Of a stretch of DNA of 64,000 nt, positions 15,236 to 19,135 are shown one piece after another. This DNA is from Thermosynechococcus sp. NK55a (GTDB lineage Bacteria; Cyanobacteriota; Cyanobacteriia; Thermosynechococcales; Thermosynechococcaceae), in NCBI RefSeq assembly GCF_000505665.1, contig NC_023033.1, positions 496,001-560,000 of the forward strand, read 5' to 3'. The translations under genes were made by a program, and so were the position numbers. The notes under the pieces were generated by a model that was not told the origin of the DNA, did no database searches, and saw only the letters and a list, made by a program, of their open reading frames with translations. Numbering within the stretch: position 1 is the stretch's first letter; every line of letters starts with the position of its first letter.

Positions 15236-16120
15236 ATGACTGTCTCTCTCCCCTCTCAAACATGGCACTGGCAAGGATACCCGATTCTCTATCGGTATCA
15301 AGGTAGCCAAGGTACCCCCCTACTGCTGATTCACGGCTTTGGTGCCTCTAGTTTGCATTGGCGCAACAATATTCCTCCCCTTGCCGCTTACCATCGGGTC
15401 TACGCCATTGATTTGTTGGGCTTTGGTGGCTCCGCCAAACCCGCTCCCTCGACTCTCCCCTACACCTTTGAGACCTGGTCAACCTTGGTTTTGGCCTTTT
15501 GCCATGAGGTGATTGGCCAGCCTACCGTTCTTATTGGTAACTCTATTGGCTGCTTGGTCGCTTTACAGGCCGCTGTTTTCCAGCCAGCGTGGGTCCGTCA
15601 ATTGATCCTGCTCAACTGCTCTCTGCGTCAGCTTCACGATCGCAAACGACAGCAACTCCCTTGGTACCGCCGCTGGGGAACCAGCCTACTCCAGCAACTT
15701 TTAGCCAATCGCACCCTTGGCACCTACTTTTTCCGCCAAATTGCCCAACCCCGTACTGTGCGCCGCATTCTCCACCAAGCCTATGCCAACGCTGCCGCGG
15801 TCACCGATGAACTAGTGGAGATATTACTCACCCCTGCCCAAGACGCCGGGGCTGCCGATGTCTTTCTGGCCTTTGTGCGTTATTCCCAGGGCCCCTTACC
15901 CGAAGACCTGCTACCGCAGATCACCTGCCCCACCTATTTCCTTTGGGGCGCCGCCGATCCCTGGGAACCGATTGATGAAGCTCAGAAGTTAGCTAAGTTT
16001 CCCTGTGTGCAGGAGTTTGTTGCCTTACCAGAGATTGGCCATTGCCCCCAAGATGAAGCACCTGAGCAGGTGAATACCCACATTCTGAAATGGTTGGGCA
16101 AAATTTCCATCAGCACCTAG
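15236..16120 (+). CDS. Alpha/beta-fold hydrolase
   Basis: This 294-aa protein has the alpha/beta hydrolase fold. The oxyanion HGFG motif (LLIHGFGASSLHW) is near residue 35. The nucleophile elbow GNSIG, with catalytic Ser, is near residue 103. The acid lies in WGAADPW and the catalytic His in EIGHCPQDEAPEQV near the C-terminus. It resembles cyanobacterial esterase/haloperoxidase-like and chlorophyllide-handling hydrolases, but I cannot fix a substrate. It starts immediately after the stop of the creatininase-family gene. Confidence 0.85.
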   Translation: MTVSLPSQTWHWQGYPILYRYQGSQGTPLLLIHGFGASSLHWRNNIPPLAAYHRVYAIDLLGFGGSAKPAPSTLPYTFETWSTLVLAFCHEVIGQPTVLIGNSIGCLVALQAAVFQPAWVRQLILLNCSLRQLHDRKRQQLPWYRRWGTSLLQQLLANRTLGTYFFRQIAQPRTVRRILHQAYANAAAVTDELVEILLTPAQDAGAADVFLAFVRYSQGPLPEDLLPQITCPTYFLWGAADPWEPIDEAQKLAKFPCVQEFVALPEIGHCPQDEAPEQVNTHILKWLGKISIST

Positions 16121-16158: not shown

Positions 16159-16232
16159 CGGGGCGTAGCGCAGCTTGGTAGCGCACCACTTTGGGGTAGT
16201 GGGGGTCGTGGGTTCAAATCCCGCCGCTCCGA
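16159..16232 (+). tRNA. tRNA-Pro, anticodon GGG
   Basis: A 74-nt cloverleaf. The acceptor CGGGGCG (16159-16165) pairs with CGCTCCG (16225-16231, one G-U), followed by discriminator A. The D stem is GCGC/GCGC. The anticodon stem is CCACT/AGTGG around loop TTGGGGT, giving anticodon GGG. The T arm is GTGGG/CCCGC with loop TTCAAAT. CCA is not encoded. It lies at the left edge of a region with gene remnants and an unusual ParA/ParB-like pair, a common integration context. Confidence 0.93.
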
Positions 16233-16285
16233 TCTTGAGAGTATTGAAAACTTGGTTAGGGCGATCGCTCTCCTTCTGCGCTTTG

Positions 16286-16425
16286 ACGGTGAACTTTATT
16301 ATTCCTATCGAGCGATCGCTCCTCTATGCTGAACCCGTTTACCTCGAAGCCGATCCAGACCATCTCCCCACTTTGGCACGGGGGGTGTCATGGATAATCA
16401 GCAAATCGTCATCGCTCCCACTTGA
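16286..16425 (+). pseudogene. Decayed fragment of a UPF0182-family membrane protein gene
   Basis: Downstream of the tRNA one frame reads VNFIIPIERSLLYAEPVYLE followed by ADPDHLPTLARGV. From 16387 the next frame continues VMDNQQIVIAPT to a stop. UPF0182 proteins carry a matching C-terminal segment (a PIE-S-LLY-EP-YL-A core, then L..RV, then a V-MAPT segment). The two pieces join only across a frameshift, and no other part of the gene is present, so this is a relic. The rest of 16233-16463 shows nothing else. Confidence 0.5.
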
Positions 16426-16463
16426 GAGGCGGGTCTTGAGTAACTGTCCCCGTGGTAACCCGC

Positions 16464-17252
16464 TTAATTAAAGCAAATGCTGAGAGAATCCCACTGGCCT
16501 GAGGGGGCGATTTCTTTCAACTCATCAACCGACCGAAATTTTCTACCCCCTTGGTGGTTTCTATACCTTTCGAGGCGTCCAATAACAACCTGAGCCTCGT
16601 CGATGGTCAATCCCGGAACACGCTGCTTAAGACTCTCAGCATCTCTGTAGCGGTTGATGCGAATATTTCGCCGCTTTTGTAATGGGGTGGGGGATGACTC
16701 TAGGATGTTCCTAAGGATTTTAACTTGTTCTGAGAGATTCATCACCTGCTGAGATTGCTCAGTCATTTCTTGATGGATGCTTTCTATCTGTTTTTTGAGT
16801 GGTTGCAGATAGCGATCGAGGATGTTCGTGAATTCTGAGGCTGACAGAGGCAACTGTAAGTAGACCCCTTCCTGTTGAGGGGGATGCCCTTGGGCATTGA
16901 TTTGCATCAGCGTTTTGATACGCTCTTGGAAATCTGAGACTTCTTGGTCATCCGCCAGTTCAACTCTGGTGGCCCACAACTGCTTAATCCCCAATTCCCG
17001 AGCAAAGTCCACAACTTCCTTGCCAAAGACAACTTCGTACTCTACATCCCCTGTCTGGCTGGTGACTGAGCGAATAATTAAGGGAATCAGGTTGGTCTGG
17101 TACTTTTCTAGATCCTCACGGATCAAAGTCGGTGAAACATACAGTAGCGCTTGGGGATAGTCATCGGGAACTTTTAGGAGATCAATGTGCACCTGACCCT
17201 GATGCACATCGTATAGACCAAGGTACCTTGAGAGTCTGTTGGATTTACTCAT
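16464..17252 (-). CDS. ParB-like protein with coiled coil and helix-hairpin-helix tail
   Basis: 262 aa from ATG 17252. The N-terminal part looks ParB/Srx-like: LIPLIIRSVT, then YEVVFGKEVVDFARELGIKQ, where ParB has a Y-(E/R)-II-GERR-A-LG pattern; the GERR box is altered to FGKEV. Residues 140-200 are Q/E-rich and form a probable coiled coil. The C-terminus has a ComEA-like HhH motif (INRYRDAESLKQRVPGLT, then DEAQVVIGRLERYR). The start overlaps the upstream ParA-fusion stop by 8 bases, so it is translationally coupled. Role is inferred: DNA-binding partner of the ParA ATPase. I do not recognise a named family for the whole protein. Confidence 0.65.
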   Translation of the reverse strand: MSKSNRLSRYLGLYDVHQGQVHIDLLKVPDDYPQALLYVSPTLIREDLEKYQTNLIPLIIRSVTSQTGDVEYEVVFGKEVVDFARELGIKQLWATRVELADDQEVSDFQERIKTLMQINAQGHPPQQEGVYLQLPLSASEFTNILDRYLQPLKKQIESIHQEMTEQSQQVMNLSEQVKILRNILESSPTPLQKRRNIRINRYRDAESLKQRVPGLTIDEAQVVIGRLERYRNHQGGRKFRSVDELKEIAPSGQWDSLSICFN

Positions 17253-18612
17253 GCTGTGGAAATGCCTCAGTGGAAAGATGGCGCGCCAAATTTTCAAATG
17301 TTGTCGTTAGCTCATCAATTGGTTCTTGATCTGCTCTTGATAATTCCGCATATAGATTTCTGCTAAATATGGGTTGCTGTAAATCTGTTGCTTTTTCTAT
17401 AGCAGCGCGCTTAGGAATCCATGTGTCTTTAGGCAAGAGATTAGAAACGACAGCATACTCGCGAGCTACTCTCTCAAGGATATCCTGGAGCCTCTCTTGC
17501 ATCTGCGCATTGACAGCAGAGTTCCTCTGATCGTACTTATTAACGGCAATACCCAGAAGCCGCGGCGGGTTATCCATTACAGGTCTGAAGGCTTCTAGGC
17601 GGGCCAAGACATACTCAATCGCCCGTATGGGGTAAGGGGCAAATTCTATCGGAATCAGAACCCCATGGGAAGCCATCAAAGCAATGGCATTGACTTTACC
17701 AAAGGCAGGGGGTGGATCAATTAGGATGATATCGTAGGGGTGGTTTCTTAGCTTTCTTTGCAGGACGCGATCGATATCTATTGTCCTAATCAGGTCGGCT
17801 TCTTGGTCTGCGAGGCGAATGTGGGAGGGGACAACGTCTAAGTGGAGATTGTCCCAACGCTTTCGATAGACGACTTCCTCGAGGGTGACCTTTGGTTCTA
17901 AGAGGAGGTGAGCAATGTCTTTCCGGCCTTGATCCTCAATATCCCTCAGGGGATCAATGCCTAAACCAATGCTAAGATTCGACTGCGGATCAATATCAAT
18001 GAGTAGCACGCGCTTGCCCATGGCAGCAAAGGCAGCACCTAGGTTCAGGGTAAGGGTTGTTTTCCCCACTCCCCCTTTATGATTAAAGACAGTAATAATC
18101 ATGGCAGTCCTCTGAGGATGTGTTGAGGGAAAAGCATAATTTTTTTGCAATACTTTTTCAAGGTGATGATAAATCTTGAGTTGCTCTTGGGTTAGGGCGC
18201 TCACGAGCGCTTCAGCAGCATTGCGGTGCAGTACCTTGGTCAGTTTTTGAATGCTTTTTCGCTCCAACTGGCCGGCGGCCCACTTGAGTTGGCACAGGGG
18301 CTTTTTTAGGGGATTTTGATAAAAGAGTTGGTAATCTTTACCATTGATTAAAAGGCCAAAAACCGCTTGAGCTGCTGCCATGTATTCCCGCAGTTGCTGT
18401 TGACCGCTGAGCCTTGACTCATTTGAGGATTTGACCTCAATCACAAGGTAGTTGAAGGAGCGATCGCCCGCCAGCGGCAAGGAAATGAGAAAATCGGGAT
18501 AGCCATTCCCTAGCTTTGGCTTGATCCAATAGTTTTGAAGATCATAGCCCCATGCCTTTAACAAAGGTAGGACTATCTTCCGTTCAATCTCGGCTTCGTT
18601 ACCCCTAGGCAT
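17245..18612 (-). CDS. Fusion: HsdR_N-like PD-(D/E)XK domain plus ParA ATPase
   Basis: 455 aa with two domains. Residues 1-130 resemble the N-terminal domain of type I restriction R subunits, with EAEIERKIVLPLL (Glu), GYPDFLIS (Asp) and LVIEVKSS (ExK), a full set of PD-(D/E)XK nuclease residues. From about residue 168 a ParA/Soj ATPase begins with a deviant Walker A (FNHKGGVGKTTLTLNLG), then LLIDIDPQSNLS and IILIDPPPAFG, to the end. ParA normally segregates plasmids or chromosomes with ParB. A nuclease-like head suggests DNA-end or foreign-DNA recognition. The coupled downstream gene is ParB-like. The domain calls are solid; the combined function is unknown. Confidence 0.8.
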   Translation of the reverse strand: MPRGNEAEIERKIVLPLLKAWGYDLQNYWIKPKLGNGYPDFLISLPLAGDRSFNYLVIEVKSSNESRLSGQQQLREYMAAAQAVFGLLINGKDYQLFYQNPLKKPLCQLKWAAGQLERKSIQKLTKVLHRNAAEALVSALTQEQLKIYHHLEKVLQKNYAFPSTHPQRTAMIITVFNHKGGVGKTTLTLNLGAAFAAMGKRVLLIDIDPQSNLSIGLGIDPLRDIEDQGRKDIAHLLLEPKVTLEEVVYRKRWDNLHLDVVPSHIRLADQEADLIRTIDIDRVLQRKLRNHPYDIILIDPPPAFGKVNAIALMASHGVLIPIEFAPYPIRAIEYVLARLEAFRPVMDNPPRLLGIAVNKYDQRNSAVNAQMQERLQDILERVAREYAVVSNLLPKDTWIPKRAAIEKATDLQQPIFSRNLYAELSRADQEPIDELTTTFENLARHLSTEAFPQHE

Positions 18613-18661: not shown

Positions 18662-19135
18662 TTAAAGGGAACGCTGCCTAAGGGGAAGCCGCCAAAAAGG
18701 CGTGGGCAACAGCCCAGCAAACACTCGTAGAACAATGAGTGCGTGCGCAAAAAAGGTCAGAGCTACCCAAAAGCGGGGAAACCAATAGGCACGTGGGTCG
18801 CTACTGAGGGGGGGAAAAAGTTGATAGCCCAGCCAAATTAAGGCGGGAGGCAAGGTTACCAATAAAACTGCCAGAATTATAGCCGTATAGGTGAGGCTAG
18901 CGGGGGGCGTGTTGAGCGATCGCCAGTTGGTACCCGTCCACTGCCAGCGAAATGCCATGGCACTGTCTTCGAGCCGTGCTGTTTGATGGACAAAATCCAA
19001 GCTGAGAATATGGCGGCAAAAGTTACAGGCATAGGTATCCATCAGTACCATCGGCGCAATTTGCCCGTGACGGCAAACGGGGCATAAATAGATGCCATTG
19101 GCTTCCAAGGGCTTAGCAGGGGTGGACTCTGGCAT
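18662..19135 (-). CDS. Zinc-ribbon membrane protein, unknown function
   Basis: This 157-aa conserved-looking protein has an N-terminal four-Cys ribbon (LCPVCRHGQ and ACNFCRHIL, a CxxC-x15-CxxC arrangement near residues 18-40). A WQWTG..WRS.N segment follows, then two TM helices (about 83-104 and 122-145). Proteins with this plan occur widely in cyanobacteria without an assigned role. The start is 3 bases after the leuA stop, so it is probably translated from the leuA transcript. Confidence 0.7.
   Translation of the reverse strand: MPESTPAKPLEANGIYLCPVCRHGQIAPMVLMDTYACNFCRHILSLDFVHQTARLEDSAMAFRWQWTGTNWRSLNTPPASLTYTAIILAVLLVTLPPALIWLGYQLFPPLSSDPRAYWFPRFWVALTFFAHALIVLRVFAGLLPTPFWRLPLRQRSL

Follow-up and report, generated by a model that had tools for sequence, protein, structure and literature searches.

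The stretch analysed here, referred to as the window, comprises 64,000 nucleotides from Thermosynechococcus sp. NK55a (NC_023033.1; the genome is denoted G000) and carries a two-gene locus on its minus strand (Table 1). The first gene encodes a fusion protein, in which an HsdR-type PD-(D/E)XK nuclease head is joined to a ParA ATPase, and the second encodes a partner with an N-domain of the ParB/sulfiredoxin (Srx) type. Both open reading frames (ORFs) are present as an earlier note on this DNA had described them, the stop of the fusion gene and the start of the partner gene overlapping by 8 bases (17245-17252). An in-frame TTG would give a partner of 277 amino acids (aa); this start is less likely, since the ORF in genome G005 begins at the same ATG. 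The movement of DNA and organelles is what ParA ATPases are known for, not the cutting of DNA; the family described here joins ParA to a ParB-fold partner and to a restriction-type nuclease that is conserved and seems intact, across much of the cyanobacterial phylum. The pair is an accessory, horizontally exchanged two-gene module, whose most likely role in cyanobacteria would be the exclusion of incoming plasmid or phage DNA.

Table 1. Positions of the gene pair, its domains and the adjoining features in the window
Feature	Position	Strand	Remarks
Fusion gene, HsdR-type PD-(D/E)XK head + ParA ATPase	17245..18612	-	455 aa, ATG start
Partner gene	16464..17252	-	262 aa from ATG
Nuclease head	18283..18612	-	Residues 1-110; E6, E10, D40, E59-x-K61, Q73-L74..Y77
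Nuclease head codons	E6 18595-18597; E10 18583-18585; D40 18493-18495	-	Computed from ORF
Nuclease head codons	E59 18436-18438; K61 18430-18432	-	Computed from ORF
ParA domain	17248..18102	-	Residues 171-455; Pfam AAA_31
Walker A KGGVGKTT	18055-18078	-	Residues 179-186
Partner ParB/Srx-type N-domain	16947..17216	-	Residues 13-102; GKEV in place of GERR
Partner long helix, likely coiled coil	16695..16841	-	Residues 138-186, AlphaFold model
Partner C-terminal tail	16464..16661	-	HhH-like (helix-hairpin-helix) by eye, low confidence
UPF0182-type gene remnant (C-terminus)	16243..16452	+	tblastn E 7e-13
tRNA-Pro(GGG)	16159..16232	+	Resident flank of slot; L087, L089 align through tRNA
Alpha/beta hydrolase (named by eye)	15236..16120	+	Resident left flank; 11/11 genus genomes
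Small zinc-ribbon-like protein (named by eye)	18662..19135	-	Resident right flank, adjoins leuA; 9/11 genus genomes

The motor of the fusion is a ParA domain: Pfam AAA_31 matches residues 172-343 with an E-value of 1.8e-40, and the sequence contains KGGVGKTT, in agreement with the full ParA ATPase with deviant Walker A motif that had been proposed. Conservation was assessed in an alignment of 63 fusion rows, 55 from G-numbered genomes and 8 from cyanobacterial L-numbered loci, which represent 61 distinct loci (L134 is the same record as G192, and L138 as G176). G014, which lacks an intact head, G043, in which the fusion is truncated and the partner present, G055, whose contig starts within the partner, and the nuclease-less pairs L345-L347 were excluded before counting. 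K179 and K184 of the Walker A motif are kept in all 63 rows. No helicase family is found among the 19 Pfam matches of the fusion protein.

The head is assigned to the HsdR-type nucleases by several approaches. The Pfam model HSDR_N scores below its cut-off on the whole fusion protein (20.0 versus 25.1 bits) and just above it on the head of the window alone (25.8 bits), and all nine heads of a diverse alignment match both HSDR_N and HSDR_N_2 with E ≤0.01. In an AlphaFold model of the head (predicted local distance difference test, pLDDT, 80.8), the elements of the PD-(D/E)XK fold follow each other in the expected order. The best structural match of this model in VIA-align is HsdR (3h1t; Z 11.3, 139 residues, root-mean-square deviation 4.4), followed by Thermus TT1808 (Z 10.6), DrdV (10.2), BpuSI (9.6) and a DUF820 nuclease (9.4); the margin is modest because mitoribosomal proteins also reach Z 8-9. 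In Foldseek, the sole match below 0.001 is the DUF820 nuclease (5.5e-4), with 3h1t at 1.8e-3, and no convincing match to the head was found in the PDB by sequence alone. E6, D40, E59 and K61 are invariant in the 63 rows, and E10 is kept in 62. Pfam, model and residues thus agree with the earlier note, which had seen an HsdR_N-type PD-(D/E)XK domain with its acidic and ExK residues and had named loss of the nuclease residues in homologues as one finding that would speak against it; D40, E59 and K61 are retained throughout.

The fusion shares the PD-(D/E)XK head, the HSDR_N/HSDR_N_2 signature and the D / E-x-K / QxxxY layout with HsdR of type I systems and with type IIG enzymes (DrdV, BpuSI), and its head also matches HsdR in fold. 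It differs in its motor, which is a helicase-translocase of superfamily 2 in HsdR and a ParA ATPase in the fusion, and the pair lacks a modification or specificity subunit.

ParB_N is matched by six of nine partner proteins at E ≤0.1 (best 2e-7), Rho_N by two of the nine and HeH by one, each among the first 25 of the 45 Pfam families; no ParB_N match was found in the partner of the window itself. In the AlphaFold model of this partner (mean pLDDT 66.4), the N-domain is followed by a short helix, a stretch of low confidence and then a long helix. Within residues 21-100 of the N-domain, the pLDDT is 74-93 per block of ten, except for residues 31-40 (62). The modelled domain matches Myxococcus ParB (7bnr) with Z 10.7 over 80 residues, and further matches are Caulobacter ParB, Noc (7ng0, Z 9.4), PadC (6ryk, Z 8.8) and sulfiredoxins, which bears out the ParB/Srx-like fold that had been predicted from the letters. 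The GERR box is indeed altered: in the profile alignment, the box of ParB aligns to letters such as GADW, the partner of the window has GKEV, and among the 60 of 61 partners with letters at this place the glycine is kept and both arginines are replaced in 60/60. The long helix (model residues 138-186; pLDDT 72-84 over 141-180, lower at both ends) supports the coiled coil suggested earlier. No helix-turn-helix (HTH) family is found among the 13 Pfam matches of the partner of the window.

The C-terminal tail of the partner appears to be exchangeable. In the window it is HhH-like by eye, with a pLDDT of 35-69 and no Pfam HHH match; at the same position, relatives carry HhH-like, SAP/Rho_N-like or other tails. 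By a crude motif, 15 of the 61 partners have an HhH-like tail, 9 a SAP/Rho_N-like tail, 9 a tail of the LTWxNL type and 28 an unassigned one; to the eye, several of the unassigned tails resemble HhH or SAP. Binding of nucleic acid regardless of sequence is common for HhH and SAP/Rho_N-like tails.

In its layout, a ParA gene with deviant Walker A motif followed by a tightly coupled ParB-fold gene, the pair resembles ParABS systems. It is unlike them in that its ParA bears a nuclease, its partner has neither the GERR arginines nor an HTH domain, no parS match accompanies it, and it is a mobile, accessory element of chromosomes rather than a stable replicon-linked locus. The parS-like sequence TGTTNCACGTGNAACA has no exact match in any of the 11 genomes of the genus. 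No iteron-like array was found in five stretches beside modules; the repeats there are short and scattered, apart from a 17-base tandem repeat in two copies (L046). A divergent centromere might have escaped these searches. Two 10-base repeats of the window, at 16261 and 16312, contain the genome-wide octamer HIP1. This sequence, GCGATCGC, occurs 92 times in the window and once in the module. The genome of the window has no ParB_N match above the cut-off. Four of the 11 genus genomes do: in G010 the protein is the module's own partner, in G001 it is the partner of a nuclease-less pair, in G004 it follows closely on a nuclease-less ParA match, and the one in G007 is unread; most remaining genus genomes have weak 96-aa matches, which are probably sulfiredoxins. 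Loss of the GERR arginines, the lack of an HTH domain, of a parS match and of any other above-cut-off ParB in the genome of the window, and absence of the pair from 2/11 genomes indicate that the pair, as far as its sequence tells, is not a canonical chromosomal ParABS system.

These features bear on the main rival explanation, a ParA/ParB-like function in positioning or partition, in which ParA would pattern the nucleoid and move a cargo or the chromosome via the partner, the head being an auxiliary DNA-binding or DNA-processing domain. The complete ParA domain with its Walker A motif, the similarity of the partner N-domain to ParB, Noc and PadC as its closest matches, the lack of an above-cut-off ParB_N protein in the genome of the window and the occurrence of ParA-partner pairs without nuclease (see below) would all fit such a function. 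PadC, other ParB-like adaptors and Noc use the ParB N-domain fold outside its usual centromere role, and this fold they share with the partner; the partner is distinguished by its pairing with a nuclease-ParA and by its HhH- or SAP/Rho_N-like tails. We nevertheless regard positioning as unlikely: the pair is missing from two of the genus genomes (a complete one and a draft in 100 contigs) and hence not needed for segregation, neither a parS-like sequence nor an iteron-like array was found in the material just described, the GERR arginines and an HTH match are missing, the pair has no single fixed chromosomal site, its core subfamily was not found on plasmids, and the catalytic residues are very well kept for a mere tether.

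Fusion and partner are almost always found together. In 61 of the 63 rows, an ORF of more than 150 aa lies downstream, within -90 to +300 bases of the fusion gene, and each of the 61 is recognized by a partner profile made from the half to which it does not belong; the co-occurrence in homologues that the earlier note had wished to see checked is therefore the rule. One of the two remaining rows is G051, whose contig ends 563 bases beyond the gene, and the other is G052, which encodes a partner ~1 Mb away in the same genome (45-50% identical to the partners of G047, G094 and G010). When the fusion, its domains and the partner were compared in six pairs within the genus, the ratio of nonsynonymous to synonymous substitution rates (dN/dS) ranged from 0.06 to 0.54, one flanking gene having 0.30 for comparison. 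Conservation over the 63 rows together with dN/dS below 1 confirms that fusion and partner are conserved beyond chance. At three of 20 loci fetched (L345, L346, L347), a nuclease-less ParA of 285-290 aa is directly followed by a partner of the same type; since such pairs exist, ParA and partner look like the core of the system and the nuclease like a frequent head.

In a set of 58 genomes, made up of the own one and relatives, the fusion is matched at E ≤1e-30 in 18 and the partner at 0.001 in 17. The fusion profile is matched at 1e-60 in 55 of 291 cyanobacterial genomes, in 34 of them over the full length; 14 of the 21 part-length matches were fetched and proved to be fusions with divergent heads (13) or nuclease-less (1). 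An intact fusion thus occurs in at least 47 of the 291 genomes, a lower bound that leaves out G043 (truncated copy) and six unread matches. Among the best 80 of at least 567 matches, eight loci are nuclease-headed, all of them cyanobacterial; the ORF of L201 (Parapedobacter) has 133 residues ahead of the P-loop, with no nuclease motif by eye. Within the genus, nine of the 11 genomes carry the pair, the two others being a complete genome and the 100-contig draft.

The pair is found at three sites in the genus. The slot of the window, between tRNA-Pro and the small protein gene next to leuA, holds it in G000, G003 and G005. A second slot holds it in G001, G004, G006, G007 and G009, which have the right-hand flank in common; a flank on the psbA side adjoins this slot in G001, G006 and G009 and lies elsewhere in G004 and G007. 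In G010, the pair occupies a third place, where its neighbours are a type II methylase/restriction gene and a fragment of an integrase. A fixed housekeeping gene in all relatives, which the earlier note had seen as a possible refutation, is not what these nine genomes and three sites reveal, and a housekeeping partition gene is rejected for the pair of the window.

Both slots turn over. In G001, G004 and G007 (L087-L091), the slot of the window is instead filled by 16-27 kb rich in glycan-synthesis genes (by eye); the G001 version includes a full UPF0182-type gene (L087:16424-19297), of which tail remnants persist in the window, G003 and G005. The decayed gene that had been noticed beside the pair is this tail. 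The second slot of G000 contains a decayed partner of the B-type (L124:2402-3013, G000:594401-595012; 40% identity over 218 aa, E 1e-26, with stops), that of G003 consists of 136 bases with no module, and that of G005 harbours a type III restriction-modification (R-M)-like locus (L126:3259-10213), whose methyltransferase is spread over three ORFs (195, 387 and 244 aa) and which may itself be decaying. R-M genes occur at two sites, adjoining the module in G010 and taking up the second slot in G005. The module of the window has a GC content of 47.3%, the lowest of all same-length stretches scanned in the window (mean 53.6%, standard deviation 1.9); two B-type modules measured have 43% versus 53% in their flanks, and that of G010 has 45% versus 52%. 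In a phylogenetic tree, the G010 copy groups with copies of other families (support 100/100), and a single clade for the genus is rejected (approximately unbiased test, p-AU 6.6e-19). The distribution is thus patchy and laterally moving, as in defence-type genes.

Mobility, low GC content and the occurrence of one related pair on a mobilizable plasmid would also be expected of a selfish or addiction cassette, which stabilizes the DNA that carries it by means of a nuclease punishing its loss. Genomes tolerate its decay (second slot of G000), an empty second slot (G003) and, in two further cases, complete absence, however, and the pair comprises no antitoxin-like gene, so that we deem this explanation very improbable.

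A second fusion of an HsdR-like head to ParA is encoded elsewhere in G000 (G000:C1:1086404-1087792; L002:967-2358; L372:7405-8796), with no partner beside it and adjoining tsf/rpsB-like genes. It is matched in 16 of 39 genomes overall and in all 11 genomes of the genus, where it is 76-94% identical outside G000; in one genome the matched frame is interrupted by a stop codon, and in another the gene is split between contigs. This gene bears on a further explanation, a role in chromosome maintenance or DNA repair, in which the pair would act on ends, forks or concatemers in polyploid cells. Besides the presence of the related fusion throughout the genus and, in G000, beside translation genes, such a role would suit HhH and SAP/Rho_N-like tails with their common non-specific binding of nucleic acid; a patchy occurrence, changing sites and lateral movement would be atypical of core repair, and we judge this role distinctly improbable.

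Among 72,556 plasmids, no record was found for the partner (that of the window and a divergent one). The fusion protein of the window matched at least 5,000 plasmid records, of which, among the matches listed, two cover at least 80%. Three plasmid matches were inspected: two are ParA genes of ordinary annotated length, and the third is a related pair (L350:2279-4342) on the mobilizable plasmid unnamed9 of Nostoc sp. UHCC 0870 (NZ_CP091922.1), with a different nuclease head on ParA and a ParB-like/Rho_N partner. This plasmid also encodes ParM/StbA and a further ParA-like gene. The Nostoc plasmid-type head matched four plasmid records, itself included, and a divergent nuclease head alone matched three, annotated as methylase or HsdR N-terminal protein. 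A usual plasmid partition system is rejected, the core subfamily not being found on the plasmids searched. In a viral-contig collection (the GenBank phage collection was not searched), the fusion protein gave no pattern match and the partner alignment no match; the best 80 of 169 loci matched by the fusion alignment do so from residue 147 on, that is, in the ParA part. A phage origin is rejected on these grounds.

Two described systems are partly similar. GmrSD, a type IV restriction system, combines a DUF262 domain bearing a DGQQR box with a proposed HNH nuclease and thus provides a case of a ParB/Srx-fold domain cooperating with a nuclease in DNA restriction; it is described with neither a ParA nor an HsdR head (PMC4619093). 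Neither fusion nor partner has a Pfam match to DUF262 or HNH, and the box of the partner is GKEV, not DGQQR. PDC-M28, a candidate defence family of PADLOC, weakly matches the fusion (1.2e-8, residues 127-208), the match being confined to the P-loop region. In the titles and abstract openings of the open-access literature, no description of a nuclease-ParA with a ParB-like partner was found.

A DNA-targeting module is the reading we draw from the domains and their conservation, from a partner that is nearly always present, from purifying selection and from lateral transfer with turnover of sites. From a conserved nuclease, a ParA and an adaptor we infer the exclusion of foreign DNA; an ATP-regulated DNA-cutting module with this function is the reading we tentatively prefer, as possible rather than probable. 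ATP-bound ParA dimers would coat DNA independently of its sequence, carrying the HsdR-type nuclease head along. The partner, a putative ParB-fold adaptor whose long helix is followed by an exchangeable tail that probably binds DNA non-specifically, would bridge DNA and trigger ATP hydrolysis by ParA where a foreign or unusual DNA feature occurs, and its action would license the head to cut. In a more specific version, which we consider rather doubtful, a partition machine has been converted to restriction: a GERR-less ParB-fold adaptor with interchangeable DNA-binding tails would steer a ParA gradient or filament that brings the nuclease to foreign DNA, and self would be distinguished from non-self by topology, copy number or positioning, not by sequence or methylation.

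DNA exclusion is favoured by the accessory dynamics of the pair and weakened by the lack of an island location and by the existence of nuclease-less pairs. Island location was examined in a PADLOC scan at 1e-15 that set 18 module loci against 18 control regions lying 40-200 kb from them on the same contigs, with up to seven flanking proteins each (125 module neighbours; 124 control proteins, two having been left out). Module neighbours matched 34 PADLOC families and control proteins 126, in a crude comparison that lists the first 25 families per scan and whose counts are not comparable in detail; the control families listed belong largely to one multi-model family, PD-T4-6, whose matches we take to be kinases. 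The module neighbours include an R-M protein in G010, a HEC-01A homologue in G229 that also accounts for one of two mad3 matches, a single match to SspH and three to PDC-S03.

Several observations weigh against DNA exclusion. PADLOC matches are not in excess near the 18 module loci relative to the 18 control regions, and most module neighbours look like housekeeping genes by eye. The PADLOC matches of fusion and partner themselves are weak and arise from the ParA P-loop or the long-helix region. Nuclease-less pairs imply that cutting is dispensable in some members. HsdR-like/ParA fusions can also become fixed genes, since the partnerless second fusion is present in all 11 genus genomes, and relatives of the pair are nearly absent from the plasmid and viral-contig collections. 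Location in defence islands, which the earlier note had wished to see checked, is not supported.

Cyanobacterial chromosome segregation is still poorly understood. If the pair excludes foreign DNA, it would embody a new principle of self/non-self discrimination, possibly via positioning or topology; if not, it would represent an unrecognized cyanobacterial DNA-processing system. In either case, its two-gene size makes it directly testable.

The neighbours of the pair in the window (a hydrolase, tRNA-Pro, the small protein and leuA, named by eye) are housekeeping-like and include neither HsdM nor HsdS. The adjacent tRNA gene noticed earlier is present, and its proposed role as an island sign does not hold: with the same stretch adjoining the variable slot in G001 and G007 as well, it belongs to the resident flank and does not indicate a tRNA-integrase insertion. 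A tRNA-integrase island is rejected, no integrase having been seen at the site in the window. At six loci of the f30 family (L330, L332, L335, L336, L337 and L342), an extra ParA of 294-298 aa, starting with MGYVIATANM or MGHVIATANM, lies within ~1 kb of the module.

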